Below are positions 1-13,924 of a stretch of DNA of 23,437 nt, one piece after another. Source of the DNA: a virus; the IMG/VR virus record IMGVR_UViG_3300009679_000221, positions 1-23,437 of that record. One strand, written 5' to 3'. The notes beneath the pieces are model-generated. The model saw only the letters and a program-made list of their open reading frames with translations. It was not told where the DNA came from and made no database searches. The first letter of the stretch is position 1. The number at the start of each line of letters is the position of its first letter. Position numbers and translations under genes: made by a program.

Positions 1-326
1 CAGCAGCAGATGCTCCTGATGGTACTGATTTTAATTCATACGATACAATAATAGGAATACATTTAGCAAATAGAACAACTAATACAATTAATGCTACTGT
101 ATTTATCACAGACTATAATGATGATGCAGATGATGATCCAACAAATAATGCTGCTAATACATATTATTTATTAAAAGATGCACCTATCCCTGCAGGATCT
201 GCATTACAAGTAATGGATGGTGGAGCTAAAGTAGTTGTTCAAGATGGTGATCGATTATGGATTCAATCTGATACAGCAAGTTCATTAGATGCATGGGTTT
301 CTGTTGTAGATGCAATAAGTACATAG
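1..326 (+). CDS. Small virion protein, C-terminal part
   Basis: The reading frame is already open at base 3 and runs 107 codons to a TAG at 324-326; the start lies upstream of the window. The product is beta-rich and hydrophilic, with a central segment LLKDAPIPAGSALQVMDGG and an end reading SLDAWVSVVDAIST. Small proteins of this type are common next to tail-fibre genes in marine phages, and from general knowledge I take it to be a minor virion component such as a neck, tail or decoration subunit. No catalytic motif, membrane segment or signal peptide is visible. The next gene starts 9 bases after the stop, and the TAGGAGAG around the stop serves as its ribosome binding site. The exact role is unknown. 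Confidence 0.7.
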   Translation, partial: AADAPDGTDFNSYDTIIGIHLANRTTNTINATVFITDYNDDADDDPTNNAANTYYLLKDAPIPAGSALQVMDGGAKVVVQDGDRLWIQSDTASSLDAWVSVVDAIST

Positions 327-335
327 GAGAGTTAA

Positions 336-835
336 ATGGGATACGTAGGAAATCAAGCAAGTAGTTCCTTTAATAGCATAACTAAACAAGATCTTACAGG
401 TGCTAGTGGTAGTTCTTTAACTCTATCAAATGCAGTGGCTAATGAAAACGAAATAGAATTATTTATTAATCATGTTAGACAAGAGCCTGCAACATCTTAT
501 ACAGCAAGTGGAACTACTGTAACATTACAGGGTTATACTGTAGCTGGAACTGATGATATATATGTAGTATATTAGGTAAAGGTCAACAAACAACAGTAAC
601 ACCAGATGGTTCAGTAACTAGTGCTAAGCTAGGAAGTGGTGTTGTACATGGTTTAGGAATATTCAAAGGTGATACTTCACAAGATCTAGGTGCTATTATA
701 AGAGTACATGAGAACGAATTAAATACAAGCACAACTATCGATGCCAATACTAATGGAATAGCAAGTGGACCAATGACAATAGCAAGTGGTGTTACATTAA
801 CTATAACTAGTGGAGGGGCATTGTCAATCGTATGA
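336..835 (+). CDS. Tail-fibre-like protein, split by a one-base frameshift
   Basis: An ATG at 336, preceded by TAGGAGAG, opens a frame that stops at TAG 573-575 after 79 codons (ending TDDIYVVY). Coding continues without a gap in the -1 frame: from 572 it reads LGKGQQTTVTPDGSVTSAKL and runs to TGA 833-835, ending TLTITSGGALSIV. The intact gene at 3516-3989 has the same plan: the same kind of YT.SG..I/V core, an SVTSAKL-like SIQAAQL stretch after the junction point, a GVTLTVNGVLTVV end, and the same ATGA overlap with the next gene. One ancestral gene of about 166 codons is therefore the best reading. A missing T near 570-574 would restore the frame. No canonical slippery heptamer is seen, so an indel or sequencing error is likelier than programmed frameshifting. 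Role inferred: tail fibre or tail-tip subunit. Confidence 0.7.
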
Positions 836-1347
836 GTGTACTAAGAACAAATCAAATACAAGATACTGGAACTAATGTTGCAGCAAATATTAGTGGTGGT
901 GTAGTTACATTTAGTAATATACCTAGTGGTATAGTAGCCAGTGGAACATACACTCCACAACTATTCGATGCAGTAACTGGAGGTAACGGAGGTGGTGCAG
1001 AAGCTACTAATGGAAATTATGTAAAGATAGGAACATTTTGTCATGTCAGTATAAGAATGGTCAATGTTACAAAGTCAGGTTTAACTGGAGGTAACGTAGC
1101 TTATTTTAGTTTACCTTTTACAGCAGCAAATATTGTTTCAAATTACTCAACTAACTTTCCTTTAGTATCAATTCTAGGAGGCACAAGTGGAAGTGAAGCA
1201 CCTCCAGTATTAAGAGTTGATCCTAACACTAGTAGATTTTTCTTTTCAAGAATTGTTGATAATGCTGCAGCAGTCGAATTTACAGTTGATAACATAGGAA
1301 GTAGTTTTGATTTAACAACTTCTGTTTCTTATATAACTGCAACGTAG
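832..1347 (+). CDS. Tail-fibre-like protein with MSxLRxNQIQD N-terminal module
   Basis: The ATG overlaps the stop of the previous gene as ATGA, which suggests translational coupling; the nearest GGAGGGG (about 810-816) is further away than usual. The first 35 residues carry the module MSVLRTNQIQDTGTN followed by SGGVVTFSNIPSG, which is widespread at the start of marine phage fibre genes. The remaining ~130 residues are Ser/Thr/Gly-rich beta structure (VKIGTFCHVSIRMVNV, then ISVSYITAT-like strands at the end) and resemble a compact fibre knob. There is no membrane segment. The module is shared with other genes of the array, including a 23-base exact match to the gene at 4687. Host recognition or a tail appendage is inferred from family context only. 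Confidence 0.7.
   Translation: MSVLRTNQIQDTGTNVAANISGGVVTFSNIPSGIVASGTYTPQLFDAVTGGNGGGAEATNGNYVKIGTFCHVSIRMVNVTKSGLTGGNVAYFSLPFTAANIVSNYSTNFPLVSILGGTSGSEAPPVLRVDPNTSRFFFSRIVDNAAAVEFTVDNIGSSFDLTTSVSYITAT
891..913 (+). repeat. 23-base module repeat, copy 1
   Basis: Encodes the SGGVVTF part of the N-terminal module in the gene at 832. An exact copy lies at 4767-4789. Confidence 0.85.
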
Positions 1348-1362
1348 GAGGATAACATGAGT
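1345..1362 (+). repeat. 18-base direct repeat, copy 1
   Basis: TAGGAGGATAACATGAGT occurs here and again at 1889-1906. Each copy includes the ribosome binding site and first codons of a fibre gene. The copies are 544 bases apart and bound exactly one gene. Confidence 0.9.
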
Positions 1363-1899
1363 GAACTAAGATCAAATAGGATTACAGATATCGCTGGAAC
1401 AGCATCTCCTATAATTCCTGGAGCAGTATTACAGATGCCTTTTACGCAGTATAGTGGCACAACAGAAGTAAGTACAAACCAAACTAGTAAAGCTGTAGAT
1501 GTTTTAACTGTTAGTATAACTCCTAAAAGTACATCATCCATAATTAAATTAGATGCTAATATATTCCATGAATGGACACAAGCAGATGCCTCGTATCTTT
1601 GTATGTGGTTTTTTTATAGAGATTCAACAAAGCTAGGTGCAGCTCAAGCAGGCAGTAGATTATGTGGTATTACTTGTTCAGGACTTAGTTATTATGCTTC
1701 AGATGCAAGTAGTACTCCTGAAGTAGCTAGTTATAGTTATTTTGATACACCCTCAACAACTAGTCTAATCACTTACAAAGTAGGTGTTGTCTCTCATCAT
1801 ACTACTTCTGTTCATATTAATAGAACAGTTAGTGATGGAGATAGTACGTCACATAATAGAGGTATTAGCTTTATCTCAGCAACCGAAATAGGAGGATAA
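1357..1899 (+). CDS. Tail-fibre-like protein on a repeat-bounded cassette
   Basis: 180 aa starting MSELRSNRITDIAGT, preceded by a strong TAGGAGGATAAC. After the N-terminal module comes a domain with VLTVSITPKSTSSIIKLDAN, then FFYRDSTKL and a C-terminus ISFISATEIGG. The gene at 5910 shows the same plan (TASITPSSSSNKILIRV, then ALLRGSTII, then ITLMEIAG), so the two are paralogues of a common phage tail domain. The final codons GGA GGA TAA double as the ribosome binding site of the next gene. Identical 18-base sequences sit at the start of this gene and at the start of the next one, so the whole ORF is bounded by direct repeats. A tail appendage role is inferred. Confidence 0.7.
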   Translation: MSELRSNRITDIAGTASPIIPGAVLQMPFTQYSGTTEVSTNQTSKAVDVLTVSITPKSTSSIIKLDANIFHEWTQADASYLCMWFFYRDSTKLGAAQAGSRLCGITCSGLSYYASDASSTPEVASYSYFDTPSTTSLITYKVGVVSHHTTSVHINRTVSDGDSTSHNRGISFISATEIGG

Positions 1900-1906
1900 C
1901 ATGAGT
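1889..1906 (+). repeat. 18-base direct repeat, copy 2
   Basis: Exact second copy of the sequence at 1345-1362. It covers the last codons of the gene at 1357 and the start of the gene at 1901. Part of the identity could come from ribosome-binding-site constraint. Confidence 0.9.
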
Positions 1907-2530
1907 ACATTAAAAGTCGGTGCTATACAAAGCACAACAGGCAATGCAGCGATAACAGTTGCAGCTAATGGTAATCTTACTATTCCAGGAACTACTACAT
2001 TTTCTAATGGTGCTGGAGCTATGGTTAAGCTATTAGATACAACTTCAGTAGCTGGAGCAACTTATGATATATCTTCAACTTATATAAATGCTACTTATGA
2101 TACTTATATAATTTATGGTGAACTATTACCAGCTACAGACAATGTATATTTATATAGTCAAGTATTTGTAGGTGGAACTGTTCAAACTGGAACTATATAT
2201 GGTTATGAAACTGCAGCTATGTCTAGTAGTGCTTATAGCAATAACGATGCAACTACATTACTTTGTCAATATGCTCATGGACCAATGGGAAATGCTACAG
2301 GTGAAGGAATTACATTTAATGCGACTTTACAAAATGTAAATAGTACAACAAGACCATGTTCTATTACAGGAATGTCTAATATAGCCAATACTAGTGGTAC
2401 TCCTAATTCTTCAACATTTGCAGGTCAGATGATACCTGCTAATGCTGCTAATGTAGTTAATGGATTACGTATACATTTTAGTAGTGGTAATATAGCTAGT
2501 GGTACAATTAGATTATATGGAGTAAGGTAA
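1901..2530 (+). CDS. Tail-fibre-like protein
   Basis: 209 aa. The start MSTLKVGAIQSTTGNAAITV followed by NLTIPGTTTFSNG is the array's N-terminal module in its commonest form. The C-terminal domain (about residues 45-209) begins VKLLDTTSVAGATYDISSTY and ends LRIHFSSGNIASGTIRLYGV. This domain is seen repeatedly in marine phage tail proteins and is presumed to be a receptor-facing beta structure. The ribosome binding site GGAGG lies inside the last codons of the preceding gene. The stop overlaps the next ATG as TAATG. Confidence 0.72.
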   Translation: MSTLKVGAIQSTTGNAAITVAANGNLTIPGTTTFSNGAGAMVKLLDTTSVAGATYDISSTYINATYDTYIIYGELLPATDNVYLYSQVFVGGTVQTGTIYGYETAAMSSSAYSNNDATTLLCQYAHGPMGNATGEGITFNATLQNVNSTTRPCSITGMSNIANTSGTPNSSTFAGQMIPANAANVVNGLRIHFSSGNIASGTIRLYGVR

Positions 2531-3225
2531 TGCCAAAGAGTCAAATAATAACTACATCTATTGCTAATGCTGCAGTAGATACAACACAACTTGCAGCTGA
2601 TGCAGTTGATAATACTATATTAGATTTAGCTGATGATTACACTTTTTCTGGAACTATTGCAGGTGATAATGCTGGGTATACTTCAGGTACTACATTTGAT
2701 TTAACCACAGCAACTTCTTATGAAGTAACTGGAATACCTGCTGGAATTAATCATTTAATAGTAGCAATATCAAATTACAGTTTTGATAATAGTGAATTTA
2801 TACAATTTCAATTAGGTACTTCAGCTAGTTATCCTGATAATTCATATAGCTATGGAGGAGTAACTCGTTATACAACTGGTAATACACATAACGTAAATGC
2901 TGGAAATACTACAGAATTACAAGATGGATTAGGTTTATTTCATTATTGTCATAACTATTCTGGAATAATTGATTGTAGAAAAGTTAATGATGCCGACCAT
3001 GAATGGGTTTTACGTTCTCAAATGGCTAGTAACTACAATGGTGGATTTCATGGTAACACTAAAACAAATTCTCATTTTGGAGAATCTTGTGCATCTGTTA
3101 GATTAGCTGCAGCTCTTACAAGAATTAAAATAAAATCTTTAGCTGGTAATAATCAGAATAATAATGCTGCAGAAGGTGGAAGTAGTGGTACTGATAAAGG
3201 TCATGTCAGATTATATTGGATGTAG
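2530..3225 (+). CDS. Tail-fibre-like protein with a different N-terminal module
   Basis: 231 aa. The N-terminus MPKSQIITTSIANAAVDTTQ with AADAVDNTILDL is a second type of phage fibre attachment module, distinct from the MSxLK type. The C-terminal domain from about residue 50 (TTATSYEVTGIPAGINHLIV, later VRLAAALTRIKIKSLAGN and HVRLYWM) is aromatic- and Asn-rich. It resembles the C-terminal domain of the gene at 5259, which has TGIPSGVKRITVMF in the same place. The upstream GGAGTAAGG serves as ribosome binding site and the start overlaps the previous stop (TAATG). The role as a tail appendage is inferred. Confidence 0.7.
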   Translation: MPKSQIITTSIANAAVDTTQLAADAVDNTILDLADDYTFSGTIAGDNAGYTSGTTFDLTTATSYEVTGIPAGINHLIVAISNYSFDNSEFIQFQLGTSASYPDNSYSYGGVTRYTTGNTHNVNAGNTTELQDGLGLFHYCHNYSGIIDCRKVNDADHEWVLRSQMASNYNGGFHGNTKTNSHFGESCASVRLAAALTRIKIKSLAGNNQNNNAAEGGSSGTDKGHVRLYWM

Positions 3226-3236
3226 GAGGAATTACA

Positions 3237-3512
3237 ATGAAAGTAAAAGTAGTAACACATGATGCAATTACAGGTAAAACTGTAGAAAAAGAAGAAGACA
3301 TAACTCCTAAAACTTATCCAGAGCAAGAGCTTAAGGTATTAAGATATGCAAGAAATGAATTATTAGCAGAAACAGATTATATGATGTTAGCAGATACAGC
3401 AACAATAAGTGATGCTTGGAAAAAATATAGGCAAGAGTTAAGAGATATAACTAAAACATTTAAAAGCATGGGAGACAAAGATTTTAAGTTTCCAACAAAG
3501 CCAAAGGAGTAG
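3237..3512 (+). CDS. Tail fibre assembly chaperone-like protein
   Basis: 91 aa and charged, unlike its beta-rich neighbours. I choose the ATG at 3237 because TAGGAGGA lies 8 bases upstream; an in-frame ATG at 3216 lies inside the previous gene and lacks such a site. The core reads RNELLAETDYMMLADTATIS (residues 39-58) and then WKKYRQELRDI (61-71), ending with FPTKPKE. This matches the pattern of phage tail assembly chaperones (RxxLLxxTDW, then AWxxYRQxLRDI, then P.P), which help fold or assemble tail fibre proteins and are usually absent from the mature virion. Its place inside the fibre array fits that role. Confidence 0.75.
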   Translation: MKVKVVTHDAITGKTVEKEEDITPKTYPEQELKVLRYARNELLAETDYMMLADTATISDAWKKYRQELRDITKTFKSMGDKDFKFPTKPKE

Positions 3513-3515
3513 GAC

Positions 3516-3989
3516 ATGCCATATATAGGGAAAGAGCCATTACATGGTGAATATATAACACTAGATAGCATTAATGCAGCAACCTCTACAGGAGCTGGAC
3601 CATACAACTTATTAAGAAATAGTGCAGCATTCAGTCCTGGAACTGCTGAGCAATGTATTGTAAGTCTTAACGGAGTAACACAAGCTCCAGGAGATGCTTA
3701 TACAATATCAGGTAGTACAATATCATTTAGTGATGCATTAACAGATAATGATGTTATTAATTATATATTAGTTATGGGTAATAACTTAAGCACAGGTACA
3801 CCTTCTAGTGGATCTATTCAAGCAGCACAGTTATCTAATACATTATTTAGAGACCCATTAAGAATTAACGATGATAGTATTGACACTAATGTAACTATAG
3901 CTAGTACAGAAAGAGCTATGGTAGCTGGAGATATCTCTGTTGCTAATGGTGTAACACTAACAGTAAATGGAGTTTTAACAGTAGTATGA
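3516..3989 (+). CDS. Tail-fibre-like protein, paralogue of the frameshifted gene at 336
   Basis: 157 aa, starting MPYIGKEPLHGEYITLDSIN. The middle (IVSLNGVTQAPGDAYTISGS, then DVINYILVMG) is the short module found in many T7-like marine fibre proteins. The C-terminal half (SIQAAQLSNTLFRDPLRIND, then STERAMVAGDISVANGVTL) looks like a small capping domain with the widespread ERAMVAGPI-type motif. The same architecture appears in the broken gene at 336-835. Stop and next start overlap as ATGA, so translation is probably coupled. Function inferred as a tail fibre or tail-tip component. Confidence 0.72.
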   Translation: MPYIGKEPLHGEYITLDSINAATSTGAGPYNLLRNSAAFSPGTAEQCIVSLNGVTQAPGDAYTISGSTISFSDALTDNDVINYILVMGNNLSTGTPSSGSIQAAQLSNTLFRDPLRINDDSIDTNVTIASTERAMVAGDISVANGVTLTVNGVLTVV

Positions 3990-4687
3990 GTAAAATATTT
4001 GTAGACTCGATAGAGCCAAAAACAACAGGTGGTAGTATTACATTTCCTGAATCTGTTACGTTTAGTAATGGATTTACCGACAGTGGTAGTACATCATCAG
4101 GAGTAGCTTTACAAAAAATATCTAGTGGATCTGCTGCTACAGGTGTAGGAAGTTTAGATGTTGTTTTACCAACAGATTCTCATTGGGATAAATTTGTATT
4201 AGTATTGAAAGGAGTTGGTGGACATTCAGATTCTGGTGGTGGACATTTAATAGCTCAATTAAGAACAAGTGGAGGTTCGGTAAGAACTACTGGAGGTCAA
4301 ACCTCTGGAGATTATTATTATTATCATGCAACAGAACAACATGGTTCAGCTTGGACTGGTGATGAACAAGATGATTCAAATGGGGTAAGGATTACATATT
4401 ATCATTTACCAGATGCTGCTGCTGCTGCTCATGCAAAAAACTATTATGAGATAGAAATTGTACATAGCAATATAACAACTGCTGGTACAAAAATTGAATT
4501 TAAAGGTTATGGATTCTCTGAATATAGTAACTCTCTCTATGGTATATGGCGACAGGGTCATGGAGGTTTAGCAACTGCAGTTGAAGTAAACGATCTTATA
4601 AGAATTAAAGGAACTGATGGTGCTCAAACTGCAGATGATACATTCACACATGAGGGTTATACATTATATGGTTGGAGGAATGACTAA
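3986..4687 (+). CDS. Tail-fibre-like protein
   Basis: 233 aa. The N-terminal module is MSKIFVDSIEPKTTGG followed by SITFPESVTFSNG. The C-terminal domain starts near residue 40 (VALQKISSGSAATGVGSLDV) and contains SHWDKFVLVLKGV, a Tyr run (YYYYH), an alanine run encoded by five consecutive GCT codons (4415-4429), and an end YTLYGWRND. The domain looks like those that follow a W/YDxY-type strand in marine phage fibres. The start overlaps the previous stop, and a GGAG lies about 14 bases upstream. The stop overlaps the next ATG (TAATG). Tail appendage role inferred. Confidence 0.7.
   Translation: MSKIFVDSIEPKTTGGSITFPESVTFSNGFTDSGSTSSGVALQKISSGSAATGVGSLDVVLPTDSHWDKFVLVLKGVGGHSDSGGGHLIAQLRTSGGSVRTTGGQTSGDYYYYHATEQHGSAWTGDEQDDSNGVRITYYHLPDAAAAAHAKNYYEIEIVHSNITTAGTKIEFKGYGFSEYSNSLYGIWRQGHGGLATAVEVNDLIRIKGTDGAQTADDTFTHEGYTLYGWRND
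4415..4429 (+). repeat. Five-copy GCT microsatellite in a fibre gene
   Basis: Five perfect GCT units encode an alanine run inside the fibre gene at 3986. Slippage would add or remove alanines without changing frame. Confidence 0.8.
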
Positions 4688-5259
4688 TGAGTGGAGTAAT
4701 AACAGCAACAAATTTACAAACGAGTAATATAAAACATACTAACGGAACTACTGCTGCTACTGTAAGTAGTGGTGGTGTAGTTACATTTAATAATGAACCT
4801 TCAGGAATAAGTAATACTCCTTGTTTTTATGCCACATTTACCACTGAAGTAACTAACCAAGCAAATAACGTAGCAATAAAGATACCATTTAATGCAACAT
4901 CATTTAATCAAGGTGGTGGAACATTTGATACATCAAACTATCGTTGGACTCCTGGAGTTGCTGGTGTTTATCAAATAGGTGCTACAGTTAATTTAAAAGA
5001 TTATGGTGATGATAGTCATTTTCAACAACAAAATGTTTCAATAAGAAAAAATGGAACTGATGTTTATTATAATCGAATACAACTTACTGCAAGTTATTTT
5101 CAAGGAGATGCTTACAATCCAATATTAACTATTCTTGGTTTAGTGCAATTAGATGCAGATGATTATGTAGAGGTATGGGGAAGCATATATGGTGGAAACT
5201 TTAATGTGCATAGTAATGGTTCAAGATTTTATGGATTTAGATTAGTGGGGACAGTATAA
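4687..5259 (+). CDS. Tail-fibre-like protein with C1q/TNF-like C-terminal domain
   Basis: 190 aa. The N-terminal ~42 residues carry the fibre module (MSGVITATNLQTSNIKHTNG, then SSGGVVTFNNEPSG). From about residue 45 the sequence follows a C1q-type jelly roll: CFYATFTTEV, then IKIPFNATSFNQGGGTFDTS, then YRWTPGVAGVYQIGATVNL, then VSIRKNGTDVYYN, then VQLDADDYVEVWG, ending SRFYGFRLVGTV. This order (F.A opening strand, PFNxxxFNxGGxFD, FTPGVAGVYQ, NG, L.DxDYVEV, F.GFRLV) is the family signature. Such domains form trimeric knobs and are common at phage fibre tips, so host binding is likely. GGAGG upstream, TAATG overlap with the previous gene. Confidence 0.8.
   Translation: MSGVITATNLQTSNIKHTNGTTAATVSSGGVVTFNNEPSGISNTPCFYATFTTEVTNQANNVAIKIPFNATSFNQGGGTFDTSNYRWTPGVAGVYQIGATVNLKDYGDDSHFQQQNVSIRKNGTDVYYNRIQLTASYFQGDAYNPILTILGLVQLDADDYVEVWGSIYGGNFNVHSNGSRFYGFRLVGTV
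4767..4789 (+). repeat. 23-base module repeat, copy 2
   Basis: Exact copy of 891-913, here encoding SGGVVTF in the N-terminal module of the gene at 4687. The flanks diverge on both sides. Confidence 0.85.
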
Positions 5260-5900
5260 TGACAAGTATAATTAAAGTAAACAATATACAGAATAGCTCT
5301 GGCACTGCTGCTGTTACTATTGATGGAAGTAGTAATGTTACGTTTCCTCAGAATGCAACTGTTAGTGGTAATACAACTGTTACTGGTAATACAACTGTTA
5401 CTGGTAATCTATCAGTAAGTGGTACTACTACTGGTATTCCTTATTCTACTATGACTTTAGAAACTACACAAACTGTTAATGGTAATGATGAAGCTGATTT
5501 TACTGGTATTCCATCAGGGGTAAAACGAATTACAGTTATGTTTCATTTATTAAGTGTTGATGGTGGAAATGAACTAATGGTTCAACTTGGAACGAGTGGT
5601 GGTTTAGTAACATCAGGTTATGTTTCTCGTTCTGATTGGGGAAGTGGTGGAGAACAAAATCTTACTGGTTTTGGTGTTTATGGAGTTAGTAGTAGTAGCA
5701 CTTTATCAGGAATTATGACATTGGTTCACATGGGTTCAAATGTTTGGGTTGAATCTCATACTGCTAGATACAATTCAAGTAATGGTGTGTTTGGTGGTGG
5801 TGGAGTTACATTGGGTGGCACTTGCGACAGACTAAGAGTAAGACCTGACGAGACAAACACCTTTGATGGTGGCACTGTTAACATAATGTATGAATCATAG
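5259..5900 (+). CDS. Tail-fibre-like protein with short repeat stalk
   Basis: 213 aa. The module MTSIIKVNNIQNSSGTAAVT with NVTFPQNA is followed by a short tandem stalk, TVSGNTTVTGNTTVTGNLSV, of the kind that builds triple-stranded fibre shafts. The C-terminal domain (about residues 70-213) contains DFTGIPSGVKRITVMFHLLS and VQLGTSGGLV and ends GGTVNIMYES. It resembles the domain in the gene at 2530 and others in marine phages. Start overlaps the previous stop (TAATG). Role inferred as a tail appendage. Confidence 0.72.
   Translation: MTSIIKVNNIQNSSGTAAVTIDGSSNVTFPQNATVSGNTTVTGNTTVTGNLSVSGTTTGIPYSTMTLETTQTVNGNDEADFTGIPSGVKRITVMFHLLSVDGGNELMVQLGTSGGLVTSGYVSRSDWGSGGEQNLTGFGVYGVSSSSTLSGIMTLVHMGSNVWVESHTARYNSSNGVFGGGGVTLGGTCDRLRVRPDETNTFDGGTVNIMYES
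5358..5429 (+). repeat. 18-base tandem repeats in fibre stalk
   Basis: Three close copies of ACTGTTACTGGTAATACA-type units run from 5358, 5376 and 5394, with a weaker fourth at 5412. They encode TV(S/T)GNT repeats. Unit number could change by recombination without breaking the frame. Confidence 0.85.
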
Positions 5901-5909
5901 GAGATATAG

Positions 5910-6401
5910 ATGGCACTAACAAAATTAAACTTTAGTGGAACACAACAAGCTCTTGTAGCTGCTAATATGCCTGCTCATAGTGTAATACAGGTTATACAAG
6001 GAACTCTTGCAACTTATGTTAATCACGATACTGGTACTTTTACAGATACTGGCTTGACTGCATCAATTACACCCTCTTCAAGTTCAAATAAAATATTAAT
6101 TAGAGTTGCTGCTCTTGGTGTAGCTCAAAATGGATCTACAGCAAAAACCGAATTAGCATTACTACGAGGAAGCACTATAATTCAATATGCCTTAAGACCA
6201 GTTCTAACTAATGGTTCAGCTACTTTTGCTGCAGGAGCTTGTGCAATGGAGTTTTTAGACACTCCAAGTACAACAAATGCTACAACATATAAATTACAAT
6301 ATAGAACAAGAGATGGTGGAGATTCAATAAGACTTAATGATTACCATACTGGTTCTGAAAGAAGCACATCTACTATTACTTTAATGGAGATTGCTGGATA
6401 A
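5910..6401 (+). CDS. Tail-fibre-like protein, last of the array
   Basis: 163 aa starting MALTKLNFSGTQQALVAANM, with TAGGAGATATAG upstream. It lacks the MSxLK module. Its domain (VIQVIQGTLATYVNHDTGTF, then TDTGLTASITPSSSSNKILI, then LALLRGSTII, ending TSTITLMEIAG) is a common phage tail domain and is paralogous to the C-terminal part of the gene at 1357. The stop overlaps the next ATG (TAATG). After this gene the content changes from fibres to small membrane proteins. A tail appendage role is inferred. Confidence 0.72.
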   Translation: MALTKLNFSGTQQALVAANMPAHSVIQVIQGTLATYVNHDTGTFTDTGLTASITPSSSSNKILIRVAALGVAQNGSTAKTELALLRGSTIIQYALRPVLTNGSATFAAGACAMEFLDTPSTTNATTYKLQYRTRDGGDSIRLNDYHTGSERSTSTITLMEIAG

Positions 6402-6920: not shown

Positions 6921-7682
6921 ATGGACCCAGTAACTATATCGTTAGCAGTGGGGGTAGCCTCAAAAGCATTCTCTGCAATTAAACAAGGATTTGCAGTGGG
7001 TCGTGATATAGAACAAATGTCAGGGGACATCGGTAGGTGGATGGGAGCAGTGTCAGATGTTGACAATGCTGAGAAGCAAGCTAAGAACCCACCTCTTTTT
7101 GGTAAACTTTTTAAGGCAGGTTCTGTTGAAGAGGCGGCAATGGCAGCATACGCAGCCAAGAAGAAACTTGAAGAACAAAGATATGAACTAAAAATGTTTT
7201 TAAATCTTACTCATGGTCCTAAAGCATATGATGAATTATTGCAGATGGAAGGTCAGATAAGAAAACAAAGACAGCAGACTATATATAAGCAACAGCAATT
7301 AAGAAGACAAGTAGGCGAAGGTATTGCGTGGTTATTTCTTGTAATTATTATAGGTAGCTTTATATTATTATTAACTAGTTTGTTTGCAAATAAAGTTTAT
7401 GCAGATACATATAAATACGTACCTAAACCTTACACTAAACAACAGCTATTACAGCAAGGTAAAATACTTGAAAAGAAATATACAACCTGTAGATTAAAGA
7501 AGATACTTAAATCAAAGTACACAAACAAACAAGCTTGTATATATTTAGGTGGAAATAAAACATATACATTAATGTATGAAGCAAACTGTCCTAAGCAATA
7601 TAAATGTCTTTATAATCCTAATAGTAAAGAACCAAATATAGATAATGTTATGGAAAGTTTAAGAAGCATAGGAAAGAAATGA
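6921..7682 (+). CDS. Membrane protein with conserved cytoplasmic half and Cys-bearing tail
   Basis: 253 aa. Residues 1-131 form a helical soluble part (MDPVTISLAVGVASKAFSAI, later IGRWMGAVSDVDNAEKQAKN with PPLFGKLF, then a basic coiled-coil-like stretch IRKQRQQTIYKQQQLRRQ). A strong membrane segment spans about 134-156 (AWLFLVIIIGSFILLLTSLF) and ends in ANKVYADTYKY, which looks like a signal-peptide end. Residues 160-253 are basic and hold four cysteines (190, 206, 223, 229), suggesting disulfides outside the membrane. The N-terminal half resembles a widespread marine phage protein of unknown function that usually ends just after its membrane segment. The tail looks like a separate secreted domain, so this may be a fusion. 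AGGAG lies 7 bases upstream; ATGA overlaps the next gene. A lysis-related role is only suggested by position. Confidence 0.65.
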   Translation: MDPVTISLAVGVASKAFSAIKQGFAVGRDIEQMSGDIGRWMGAVSDVDNAEKQAKNPPLFGKLFKAGSVEEAAMAAYAAKKKLEEQRYELKMFLNLTHGPKAYDELLQMEGQIRKQRQQTIYKQQQLRRQVGEGIAWLFLVIIIGSFILLLTSLFANKVYADTYKYVPKPYTKQQLLQQGKILEKKYTTCRLKKILKSKYTNKQACIYLGGNKTYTLMYEANCPKQYKCLYNPNSKEPNIDNVMESLRSIGKK

Positions 7683-8293: not shown

Positions 8294-8572
8294 ATGAAAA
8301 CTAAAAAAGAAATTGAGGACTCTATTAAAAAAATAATTGAAGAAAGTATATTACCTACTGTACAAATGCATGGAGGTCATGTAGAGCTACAATCATTTAA
8401 TGATGGAATAGCTACAATATTTTTAAGTGGTGCTTGTAGTGGATGTGCAATGTCTACACAAACATTAAAGATGGGTATAGAAAATATGTTAAAATATTAT
8501 ATACCTGAAGTCTTAGGTGTTGAAGGAATTGAAGATCCAAATTCTACTGTTGATCCTTATTACTCATACTGA
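8294..8572 (+). CDS. Nfu-type Fe-S cluster scaffold domain protein
   Basis: 92 aa, consisting of one NifU C-terminal-type domain. Visible features are the helix EIEDSIKKIIEESILPTVQM, the HGGHVEL strand (usually DGGDIEF), the loop FNDGIATIFLSGACSGCAMS with the CxxC pair C48 and C51 that holds the bridging 4Fe-4S cluster, and the helix TLKMGIENMLKYYIPEV. Nfu proteins carry Fe-S clusters to target enzymes. Stand-alone domains of this size are known in marine phages as auxiliary metabolic genes, presumably supporting host Fe-S enzymes during infection. It has no A-type domain and no N-terminal IscU-like domain. It starts right after the holin stop and precedes ribonucleotide reductase. Confidence 0.88.
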   Translation: MKTKKEIEDSIKKIIEESILPTVQMHGGHVELQSFNDGIATIFLSGACSGCAMSTQTLKMGIENMLKYYIPEVLGVEGIEDPNSTVDPYYSY

Positions 8573-10414: not shown

Positions 10415-13400
10415 ATGGATCCAAATGAAATAATTAATGTAGTTGATTTGGCATCTAAAGGAGTAATAATTGATACACCTCCAGCTTCTTTACCTGCAAA
10501 TATATTTACTGATGTAAGAAATGTTAGGTTTAAAGATGGAGCAGTAAGAAAGATTGAAGGAGAAGTTTTATTAAATGATATAGATTTAAGTGCTTCTACT
10601 CATGGAAAAGTTAGATATTTAGCTTATTGGCCGAATCCCAATAGGAGCCCTCTGGGTGGCTATTATATTTTTGTTATAGATTATGTCAGTAGTGGTATTA
10701 CCATAGGCCAGAGGGTCTTTATACAAGACCACACGGGTACTAGAAGAGACATTACTCCTACATCTTTAAACAGTAATAACGGATTTACTTATACAGCGTC
10801 AGGTTGGCAGCATACTTTATTTGCTGGAGGATTTGCTTTTGTTATAAATAATGGAATTGATAGACCCCATTATATACTAGATGATGAAGGTAACACTGAT
10901 ATTAATAATATTGTTTTAGCGCAACTTCCAGGATGGGATAGCTATAATGCTTTTACTGAAGTCTTTAATGAAACTTGGTATGCCGCTGATATGTCATTAG
11001 TATTTGACTTAGCAAAGAAGATTGACTTTACTGTAGAAAAAATTACTGTAAAAATAAATGCAAGTACAACAACTTTTACTTCAGCAACAACAACTAATAA
11101 TATTGTTTTAGCTTTAGATACAACAACTAATACTCATGTCTTAACTTTTAATTCAGGAGGAACAGTTTTAAATGATGAAGATCTTGTTGAAATTAAATTT
11201 GAATCAGTAAATGTAGTTCAAGTAAGAGCTGCTGTTATTAGATCGTTTAAAAACTTTTTAATTGCTGGAGATTTAACTGAAGTTGATTCAACTAATAATG
11301 CTAAAATAGTTCGTAGACTTTCAGGAGTTATAAGAATTTCTGATTCAGCGGCGCCTGGTAGTATTCCAAATAACTGGAATCCATTTGCTTCTGGTACAAA
11401 TACTGCAGATGAATTTACTTTATCTGAAACTTATATTGTTAAAGATATTGTTTCTATGCAAGGTAGTTTATTTGTATACACTACACAATCTATTCATCAA
11501 ATAAAAGAAACTGGTATATTTGCAATACCTTTTTCTTTCACACCTATAACCGATTCCTATGGTACTATCTCCACTAATATTCCAATTGAATATGAAGGAA
11601 AACATTTTGTTGTAGGAACAAATGATATTTATTCTTTTCAAGGGCATCCTGGAAATATACAATCAATTGCTGATGGAAGAATCAGAGAATACTTTTTTAA
11701 TAATATAAATCCAATCTATGAGCAGCAGATATTTACATTACAAAATGCTGGACAAAATGAAATATGGTTATGTTATCCTACAAATCAATCTAAGTTTGGG
11801 GAATGTGATGAAGCATTAATATGGAATTATAGAAGTAATACCTGGACTATAAGAGATTTAGATAGTGTTACTTCAGGTGATGTAGCACCTGTTAAAGGAG
11901 GAGGCGTACCTTCTGCAACCTTAACTATTACAGGTAACTCTGGAAACTTTGGTTATACTAATAGAGGTAAGAGAGAAGTACAAAGAACTATAGTTAATGG
12001 TTATGCTGCTAAGAGACATATTGGTGTTAAAGAAAAACAAAAAATATTAGTTGGTTCATTTAGCAACTTTAATGCAACTGGAGATATAACTCTTACAGTA
12101 CATTTTCCAGATGGAACAAGTGCTTATAGTATATTAAATGGTAATGGGTTTAGTACAACTTTAATAAGAGATGAAATTAAAAGTCTTATAGATAATAATA
12201 GTTCTTGGACTACTGCTAATAGCTCAACTAATGCAGTCATACTTACCGCCCCAGCTGTAAGTCCACAAAATCCATTTGATGTTACTGTTGTAAGTAGTGG
12301 ATCATTACCTACAGGATTTGCTGATAGCACATTTACAGTAACCGAAGAGAGAGCTGGTTATAATGCATCTACTAATGAAGATGTGTTAGTACTAACTCCA
12401 CCTTCAGGATTTGGTACAGCACTAAATGTAACTCTTACTGCAGGCACAGGTAATTCAAATACATTTGATGTTGATAGTGCGGTAGGATATAGTACAACTG
12501 CTCATATAACTCCAAATGAAATTGCTACATTAGTTTATAATGCATGGCAAGCTGGAGGTAATTCTGCTAACCAAGCTATATGGACATTAGCAAACCCAGG
12601 AGGAAGTAGCCCTAACCTAGATTTTACTACAGTAGATAGATCGGCAGTTACTGGAACATTCACATATACTATAACTCAAGGAACAACTAGAACTGGTTAT
12701 GCAGCTGGACAAACACTTATTAGTAATGCAAGTGGTTCAGCAACTACTGAGGGTGTTACACCAACGTTTGCTAGAGGCACACGTGTTACTTTAACATTAA
12801 ATGGTGGTACTGTAATCTTTGATAAACATTATGGTGAAGGACCTGGAAGAATACTCGATAGCACATTTGTTAAAGGTGCAAACGATAATCATTATGGTTC
12901 TGTAACAGGATGGGATAGCACAACATTAGCTAACGTAAGAAGTACGTCTAATGATAATGCATATAGAGCTTTATTTTATAATCCTGATGCAACACAAAAT
13001 ACAGCTGAAACAAATAAATCAAATGGATTAATTGTTGATATGACTTTACATACTGCAACAAATAATACAACTACAACATTAATTGATTTAGCTGGAACTA
13101 ATGCATTAAAAGATATGTTATCAGTAATTGATTCTAACGAATTAATTAATGTTACTGCAGACAGTACAAGTGATCCTACAAATTTAGTAGTTACGTCAAG
13201 TCAGTTCTCAAGTGATGCAAGTTATGTACAAACTTATAATCCTTTTAGTACTCAAGTTGTGGCAGCTCGTGTAGCACCAACAACAAGTGCTCTTACTTCT
13301 GCTAGTGAAGGATCCACTGTTTCAGATAGTGCACCTACACAAGCTACAGGAGGAACAAGTATATCAACAACATTTGATATTGACAGACCTTGGAGTAGTA

Positions 13401-13924
13401 GTAATTTAAATCCAAATAAACTATTTCCTATCTTTGCAGAAAGTGGATTCTCTTCTGGAACTTTATTTAATAGAATAAGGGCTGCAGATATTAGTTATAA
13501 ATTTGGTACATCTTATTATGTTTCTTATGCAGAAAGAACTCAAATATCTATTAGTCCAAACTTTGACACTGAACATTTAGAATCGCTATCCCTATGGGGA
13601 GATGGTGGAACTGTTGAAACTGTGGGTGGAGAACCACAACCAGCTACTTTAAGAGTGAGGGCACGAAGTACAAATAACTCAGGGCAATTATCTTACTTAA
13701 CAACTGCTGAAGATAACACTCAATCAAATGCTAAAGCTAATAAGCTAGTTGTAAATGATTTTGTAGTAGGCAGTGATCATAAAGTTGACTTAAGAGTATT
13801 TGGTAGATTTTTAAATTATAGAATTGATGATGCAAATGCTTCTGGTAGTTATGTCACAACAAGTAATAAGGGTTGGAATGTATCTGGATTACAACTCCAT
13901 GTAAAGAAAGGAGGAGTAAAGTAA
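10415..13924 (+). CDS. Large tail protein, probable tail tubular/nozzle type
   Basis: 1169 aa with AAAGGAGAT upstream. The N-terminus VVDLASKGVIIDTPPASLPA followed by FTDVRNVRFKDGAVRKIEG matches the G.i.D.pp..LP...f.d.rNvRF.dGav...G opening of podovirus tail tubular/nozzle-like proteins. The following FAGGFAFVINNGIDRPHYIL, AQLPGWDSY, and RSFKNFLIAGDLTEVDST segments fit the propeller-like repeats of that family. Residues from about 530 to 900 are Ser/Thr/Asn-rich beta domains (DITLTVHFPDGTSAYSILNG and similar), apparently inserted, followed by a C-terminal part ending GWNVSGLQLHVKKGG. The usual family length is shorter, so the inserted domains explain the size. Function is inferred from the N-terminal resemblance. 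The stop overlaps the next ATG. Confidence 0.6.
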   Translation: MDPNEIINVVDLASKGVIIDTPPASLPANIFTDVRNVRFKDGAVRKIEGEVLLNDIDLSASTHGKVRYLAYWPNPNRSPLGGYYIFVIDYVSSGITIGQRVFIQDHTGTRRDITPTSLNSNNGFTYTASGWQHTLFAGGFAFVINNGIDRPHYILDDEGNTDINNIVLAQLPGWDSYNAFTEVFNETWYAADMSLVFDLAKKIDFTVEKITVKINASTTTFTSATTTNNIVLALDTTTNTHVLTFNSGGTVLNDEDLVEIKFESVNVVQVRAAVIRSFKNFLIAGDLTEVDSTNNAKIVRRLSGVIRISDSAAPGSIPNNWNPFASGTNTADEFTLSETYIVKDIVSMQGSLFVYTTQSIHQIKETGIFAIPFSFTPITDSYGTISTNIPIEYEGKHFVVGTNDIYSFQGHPGNIQSIADGRIREYFFNNINPIYEQQIFTLQNAGQNEIWLCYPTNQSKFGECDEALIWNYRSNTWTIRDLDSVTSGDVAPVKGGGVPSATLTITGNSGNFGYTNRGKREVQRTIVNGYAAKRHIGVKEKQKILVGSFSNFNATGDITLTVHFPDGTSAYSILNGNGFSTTLIRDEIKSLIDNNSSWTTANSSTNAVILTAPAVSPQNPFDVTVVSSGSLPTGFADSTFTVTEERAGYNASTNEDVLVLTPPSGFGTALNVTLTAGTGNSNTFDVDSAVGYSTTAHITPNEIATLVYNAWQAGGNSANQAIWTLANPGGSSPNLDFTTVDRSAVTGTFTYTITQGTTRTGYAAGQTLISNASGSATTEGVTPTFARGTRVTLTLNGGTVIFDKHYGEGPGRILDSTFVKGANDNHYGSVTGWDSTTLANVRSTSNDNAYRALFYNPDATQNTAETNKSNGLIVDMTLHTATNNTTTTLIDLAGTNALKDMLSVIDSNELINVTADSTSDPTNLVVTSSQFSSDASYVQTYNPFSTQVVAARVAPTTSALTSASEGSTVSDSAPTQATGGTSISTTFDIDRPWSSSNLNPNKLFPIFAESGFSSGTLFNRIRAADISYKFGTSYYVSYAERTQISISPNFDTEHLESLSLWGDGGTVETVGGEPQPATLRVRARSTNNSGQLSYLTTAEDNTQSNAKANKLVVNDFVVGSDHKVDLRVFGRFLNYRIDDANASGSYVTTSNKGWNVSGLQLHVKKGGVK

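Follow-up and report, generated by a model that had tools for sequence, protein, structure and literature searches.

The window analysed here is the entire IMG/VR record IMGVR_UViG_3300009679_000221 (23,437 bases), a marine short-tailed-phage-like fragment whose first 12 kb gave zero matches in a megablast comparison to phage records. Positions 336-6401 hold an array of 11 genes, all on the positive strand and overlapping or adjacent; start and stop codons mostly overlap, gaps do not exceed 9 bases, and the genes S1 to S11 form one tight operon. The array comprises one tail-fibre assembly chaperone, two short base proteins (S1 and S7) and eight small fibre proteins (Table 1). An initial annotation, based on the sequence alone, had described ten adjacent fibre-like genes beginning at position 832. 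The row of adjacent small open reading frames (ORFs) on the positive strand was recovered, but one of the ten, at 3216-3512, is the chaperone, and the array starts earlier, at 336, with the S1 base. An ORF of 79 amino acids (aa) starting with MGYVG is the front of this base of ~166 aa; after one frame break the frame resumes to 835, where the stop overlaps the start of S2. Intact homologues of S1 (163-170 aa) occur in relatives. The break, with the remainder of the gene intact, is either genuine damage or an artefact of sequencing or assembly. The S1 and S7 bases are homologous with 26-30% identity.

Table 1. Genes and features of the fibre array and its borders (positions in the window).
Feature	Position	Strand	Characteristics
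'Neck' marker, C-terminal part	3-326	+	homologous to gp42 of HMO-2011 ('putative structural protein'); borders the array on its 5' side
S1, short base (MGYVG...)	336-835	+	tip at end ...GPMTIASGVTLTITSGGALSIV; one frame break near 571-576
S2, follower 1 of S1	832-1347	+	module MSVLRTNQIQ, beta knob
S3, follower 2 of S1	1357-1899	+	module MSELRSNRIT, 'ITPSS' knob (F0); PHROG 6942 tail fiber E=1e-13
S4, follower 3 of S1	1901-2530	+	module MSTLKVGAIQ, 'LYG' knob (F8)
S5, putative stand-alone fibre	2530-3225	+	module MPKSQI, 'LYG'-superfamily knob; PHROG 18673
APC, tail-fibre assembly chaperone	3216-3512	+	PF16778 E=1.5e-10; PHROG 4912 tail fiber assembly E=4.8e-15
S7, short base (MPYIGKEP...)	3516-3989	+	PHROG 18673 tail fiber E=1.5e-32
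S7 tip motif (TIASTERAMVAGDISVANGVTLTVNGVLTVV)	3837-3986	+	aligns with tips of S1, HMO-2011, Melnitz and cyanophage giant fibres
S8, follower 1 of S7	3986-4687	+	module MSKIFVDSIEPKT, 'LYG'-superfamily knob (F12)
S9, follower 2 of S7	4687-5259	+	module MSGVITATNLQ, C1q knob (F1)
S10, follower 3 of S7	5259-5900	+	module MTSIIKVNNIQ, 'LYG' knob (F7)
S11, putative stand-alone fibre	5910-6401	+	module MALTKLN, 'ITPSS' knob (F0); PHROG 6942 tail fiber E=6e-9
MDPVTIS membrane-protein marker	6921-7682	+	3' border of array; just 3' of S11 in most relatives

The bases S1 and S7, the tip motif, the membrane marker and the large tail protein served as search queries and retrieved about 400 loci of relatives, labelled by L-numbers (L002, L003 and so on). 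Their ORFs were labelled by profiles and N-terminal patterns, and loci sharing more than ~1 kb of DNA were merged. All well-covered arrays of the group presented a constant slot order, neck, S1, (S2, S3, S4), S5, chaperone, S7, (S8, S9, S10), S11 and marker, which was kept across dozens of distinct contigs; almost every mapped relative had the neck marker directly 5' of S1. The first 22 N-terminal residues had median identities of 38-55% within a slot versus 20-38% between slots, and the C-terminal parts reached a median of only ~25-31% even within one slot. Recurring N-terminal motifs joined to varied all-beta C-termini had been noticed before and were confirmed. To judge from these alignments, the N-terminal modules are tied to position, conserved in order and not freely swapped. 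The comparison across relatives could have revealed the same genes in fixed order and no exchange; it revealed fixed order with exchange. Of the tandem mix-and-match library proposed initially, the separate small proteins with exchangeable C-terminal domains were retained, while the N-terminal modules are ordered and slot-specific, and a short base is accompanied by exactly three of the small proteins.

Two forms of base occur. The short ones (S1 163-170 aa, S7 151-162 aa) end in a conserved tip of ~45 residues with the pattern ..N.TI.ANTNA..AGPLTIASGVTLTI..G.L.IV, whereas in long bases a knob of their own replaces the tip. Behind a short tip-ended base lie exactly three genes for small fibre proteins; a long knob-bearing base has none and replaces the whole cassette. 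Every short S7 base traceable to the next slot had exactly three followers (30/30, with HMO-2011 31/31) and every long one had zero (20/20); behind four further S7-position bases of 216-360 aa, triplicated S11 genes come next. At the S1 position, three followers were found for 12 of 12 short bases (13/13 with HMO-2011) and zero for 47 of 49 long bases, the other two having one unassigned gene at the S5 position. The 223-aa S1 of L135 is followed by one 817-aa gene. Fisher tests of short versus long bases yielded ~1e-14 and ~1e-13, shared ancestry being ignored. The locus L182 has an extra unit in place of S5, consisting of a 70-aa tip-ended base and three followers. Lederberg EXVC029P (Led_2 + Led_1/_71/_70) and HTVC115P (gp60 + gp59/58/57) obey the rule once and HMO-2011 twice (gp41 + gp40/39/37, gp33 + gp32/31/29). 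The S11 position is occupied by one gene, but by three paralogues of the same knob family in HTVC010P (L174, gp30-32), HTVC019P (L257, gp45-47), L149 and L150. In the cyanophage Sf-FR1, three genes of 250-253 aa and one resembling a chaperone gene lie behind a giant fibre that ends in the tip. An automatic survey of tip-ended proteins counted one, two, three and four recognised followers in 12, 16, 78 and 4 units, thus with a peak at three; in most units counted as two, another gene bears a module that is recognisable yet below threshold, and S11 is part of the count in three of the four units with four. The one-plus-three rule and the slot grammar appear to have no earlier description in the open-access literature, subscription journals lying outside that search.

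The C-terminal parts belong to the families ITPSS (F0), C1q (F1), LYG (F7, F8 and F12, mutually detected on iteration), GDLA (F5) and smaller ones, and most of the larger families are present in several slots. F0 knobs were found in S3, S4, S5, S8, S9, S10 and S11, F1 knobs in S5, S8, S9 and S10, and both also in long bases. The long S1 of L193 and the long S7 of L205 have 178 residues in common at 98% amino acid identity. High identities were also present between the knobs of L124 S10 and L231 long S7 (92%), L138 S9 and L142 S8 (92%), L027 S2 and L230 long S1 (88%) and L003 S10 and L110 S8 (82%). In eight recent-transfer pairs, the DNA is 82-96% identical from 72-117 bases into the follower (codon ~24-39) to near the stop codon; where a long base is involved, the match starts behind the base domain. 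On this sequence evidence, knobs move between positions and phages with the joint at the junction of N-module and knob, and the slot-marking N-module stays put. Within the window alone, shared halves are weak and domain exchange was not evident: S2 and S9 agree over their initial ~40 residues (E=2e-6), S5/S10 and S3/S11 have parts in common only marginally, and most pairs were too weak in an all-versus-all comparison. The gene pairs sharing one half, proposed in the initial annotation, became clear once relatives were included.

Further arrangements were observed around tip-ended proteins. In another lineage, fibres of 680-830 aa end in the tip and precede three genes (L293, L298, L299, L303, L305, L308, L311, L315, L318, L320, L343); these followers have different fixed N-modules (MAIQINGNG.., MS(S)IKLKHSGG.. 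and MSRILVDQ../MSTLKVDG..), and the next genes are usually a small ORF and one resembling S5. In the methylophage Melnitz EXVC044M (L177, 114226-116582), a tip-ended base of 115 aa is flanked by one MSxLxV-type gene in front and two behind, a gene order deviating from the podovirus rule. Directly behind trios, several of them with GDLA knobs, lies a two-gene pair (MQTPEFQGTHLF.. and M..TYIVDKDGNQ..), located at L002:2998-3465 + 3476-3850, in HMO-2011 (gp36/gp35) and in L214, L221, L228, L238, L279 and L316; these are perhaps knob-specific chaperones.

The chaperone APC scored 41.2 bits to PF16778 (Phage_tail_APC), above the gathering cut-off of 26.6. A long S1 base of a relative (L005:1863-3122) has a C-terminal intramolecular chaperone domain (Peptidase_S74), and folding help may come in cis or from the separate APC gene. 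The C1q-like knob recognised initially is that of S9. The F1 family profile matched adiponectin/C1q in the PDB with E=2.3e-22, and PF00386 was matched by 7 of 18 F1 members, the S9 of the window alone giving no Pfam match; F1 is, on these profile matches, the C1q family. The F0 profile matched residues 523-658, the C-terminus, of the solved phage chain 9efk_AE ('orf22', 658 residues) with E=1e-26, a chain present as 18 copies of one sequence in the structure. PHROG 6942, PHROG 18673 and 9efk_AE connect the array by sequence similarity to tail fibres. The S10 knob was predicted by AlphaFold2 (AF2) as all beta, with a predicted local distance difference test (pLDDT) of 89.8 and a predicted template modelling score (pTM) of 0.82. 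A fold search of the PDB with this model revealed weak galectin-like matches only, none with E<0.001, and the fold recurs inside many longer predicted viral proteins. Sequence profiles of the LYG knob families had no match in the PDB. The AF2 model of the S7 base had a mean pLDDT of 70, in the C-terminal part 75-86, and is too uncertain for a binding mode of the tip. These findings on the knobs are compatible with receptor-binding heads.

With good confidence we regard the array as a host-recognition apparatus built as ordered fibre cassettes, which in full is the best explanation of these observations. The bases S1 and S7 would attach close to the tail, each with the conserved beta tip as its end, and on each tip three small fibre proteins (S2-S4; S8-S10) would sit, bound through the short N-terminal module specific to their position. 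S5 and S11 would be stand-alone fibres, and the chaperone would aid folding. That the array proteins serve as fibres on the virion, that they co-assemble and that N-modules attach to the tip is our inference. The way the operon is laid out, the presence of a chaperone and the unchanging slots suggest joint assembly on one particle; with all products of one operon placed on the same virion, one particle would display many different binding knobs. Knobs would be replaced by recombination at the junction of N-module and knob, with any position of any related phage as donor, and the N-modules would keep the proteins in place.

The opposite proposal, an alternative use of the genes with one or few fibres expressed or assembled per particle by phase variation or a diversity-generating element, is generally known from other phages, and the many knobs per genome would suit it. 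It is nevertheless very improbable for a single overlapping operon on one strand with constant gene order and number. Neither the reverse transcriptase of a diversity-generating retroelement (PF00078) nor the serine recombinase of an invertible tail-fibre switch (PF00239) was found in eight related records (the window and seven relatives, several of them fragments), and inverted repeats were short and imperfect; the retroelement and invertase explanations were rejected on these grounds. Assembled together or used alternatively had been the two options of the initial annotation, and the tight operon and the lack of both enzymes in these records make the former the better fit. That the proteins decorate the capsid or another surface instead of the tail is hardly credible: several surface proteins do vary in marine phages, but the matches to tail-fibre PHROGs, the chaperone, the annotation of homologues in HMO-2011, HTVC010P and HTVC019P as tail fibre, the ITPSS match to the C-terminal end of the 658-aa chain 9efk_AE and the tip motif terminating cyanophage giant fibres all point to the tail.

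For the trio itself we prefer, tentatively and as an unproven model, that its three different chains join 1:1:1 in a heterotrimer seated on a base that is itself a homotrimer; gene numbers limited to one or three hint at trimer chemistry. A precedent comes from the virophage DSLV2, whose three tail proteins encoded in a row were purified together as a heterotrimer (PMC12724248). The likeness includes three consecutive small tail genes, a position-specific phylogeny and a relation to Synechococcus phage tail fibres; the array trios likewise are three consecutive genes with position-specific sequences. Co-expressed DSLV2 proteins gave a 1:1:1 heterotrimer. DSLV2 differs in being a virophage with a gp37-like fold, and no tip-ended base is mentioned in the available part of that report. 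By analogy, a consecutive, position-specific trio of tail genes can form a 1:1:1 heterotrimer. An extension held with somewhat greater reserve is a general marine-phage fibre design, a homotrimeric base with a beta tip capped by three separately encoded different chains, in which single-gene fibres, one-plus-three cassettes and the triplicated S11 would be interconvertible, drawing on a common knob pool and offering up to three receptor-binding heads per fibre.

Several observations weigh against this reading. The S7 trios mix knob families in 28 of 30 cases; single-family trios were limited to 2 of the 30 (HTVC115P and Lederberg), and a heterotrimer of like knobs as the general case was rejected. 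Same-family pairs were slightly more frequent than in shuffles (17 vs 10.8, p=0.02), but not above pairs of trio members with S11, and a coordination of knob start positions (stalk lengths) within S7 trios was tested and none found (p=0.70). The long S7 of L231, a single-gene fibre, and the follower S10 of L124 have almost the same knob (92%), which suits homotrimers. Followers of 51 surveyed tips were missed by the N-module profile, many of them apparently numbering three when judged by eye, and some surveyed units have one or two followers (S-RIM32 one; L270-L274). As a strict law, 'never two followers' was rejected, the cyanomyovirus-type loci L270-L274 and S-RIM32 having one or two. A branched arrangement, in which every follower trimerises with itself into a separate fibre and the base serves as a scaffold onto which three different fibres dock, much like the branched receptor-binding systems of Ackermannviridae, is a possibility to be taken seriously, although we give it less than an even chance. 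The unlike knob families in most trios, the near-identical knobs of followers and of single-gene fibres (presumably homotrimers), the 18 chains of one sequence in 9efk_AE as nearest solved relative of the ITPSS knob and the missing stalk coordination inside trios agree with it; it leaves unexplained the consistent number three, the one or three S11 genes and the same-family gene trios of Sf-FR1 and of GDLA-type units. The number could also be the legacy of one ancestral three-gene cassette without structural meaning, which we consider unlikely. The S1 and S7 bases are homologous, hence the unit may be duplicated by descent, and the counts are not phylogenetically independent. Yet threes appear despite distinct N-modules and knobs in the S5 unit of L182, in Sf-FR1 and in L279, L281, L316 and L322, the S11 triples lack a short base and still number three, and three persists under heavy gene turnover in the region.

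The cultured phages HMO-2011, Lederberg EXVC029P, HTVC115P, HTVC010P and HTVC019P possess homologous slots, chaperones and knobs, with one-plus-three or one-or-three units in the deposited genomes; their genes were annotated one by one as tail fiber or hypothetical, and they have fewer genes than the L182 array. T4-like phages have one adhesin locus per phage. The replacement of the adhesin part of the fibre by recombination is alike in their distal tail fibres, but no multi-slot array with exchange between slots is known there. Branched systems with several receptor-binding proteins are described for Ackermannviridae and Alcyoneusvirus, attached via N-terminal docking domains and with swappable C-terminal domains; these are large enzymatic tailspikes with large N-terminal domains, in contrast to modules of ~20 residues on proteins of 125-235 aa in threes in the marine array. 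Variable C-termini are already known: a report on metaviromic islands in marine phages describes hypervariable C-termini of tail-fibre and C1q proteins in pelagiphage-like genomes (PMC3909814), and arrays are visible in deposited genomes. In the available part of that report the islands are described as under-recruiting regions, with no mention of fixed slots, a base tip or three-gene cassettes.

The host is suggested to be alphaproteobacterial, probably SAR11, since a genome-collection match was a contig binned with a metagenome-assembled genome of Candidatus Pelagibacter, with genes close to L003, and homologues occur in pelagiphages and a SAR116 phage; the binning of viral contigs is weak evidence. 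Phage fibres are usually viewed as homotrimers with one kind of binding head. If the proposed assembly is correct, a fixed grammar of one base and three partners with exchangeable heads would result in multi-specific fibres, and it would account for the way in which phages that infect the highly abundant ocean bacteria SAR11 and SAR116 can vary their host contacts while assembly is preserved. The one-or-three rule recurs in many marine phages, single fibres may carry several different binding heads, and the question arises whether marine phage fibres are heterotrimers. Rule-obeying isolates (HMO-2011 on host IMCC1322, Lederberg on HTCC1062, HTVC115P on HTCC7211) are already described, which makes the proposal directly testable, and many 'hypothetical' marine phage genes would be better annotated.

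Downstream of S11 follow, in this order, a short ORF, the membrane-protein marker, a holin, a NifU-like protein, a ribonucleotide reductase and the large tail protein. The NifU-like gene (8294-8572) between holin and ribonucleotide reductase encodes by inspection a CSGCAMS motif of the iron-sulphur scaffold type; it is absent from the close relative L002 and is a possible auxiliary metabolic gene. In the N-terminal half of the large tail protein (10415-13924), one stretch is shared with structural proteins from PaP3-like Pseudomonas phages and with many further phages, and the C-terminal half was matched only in close relatives.

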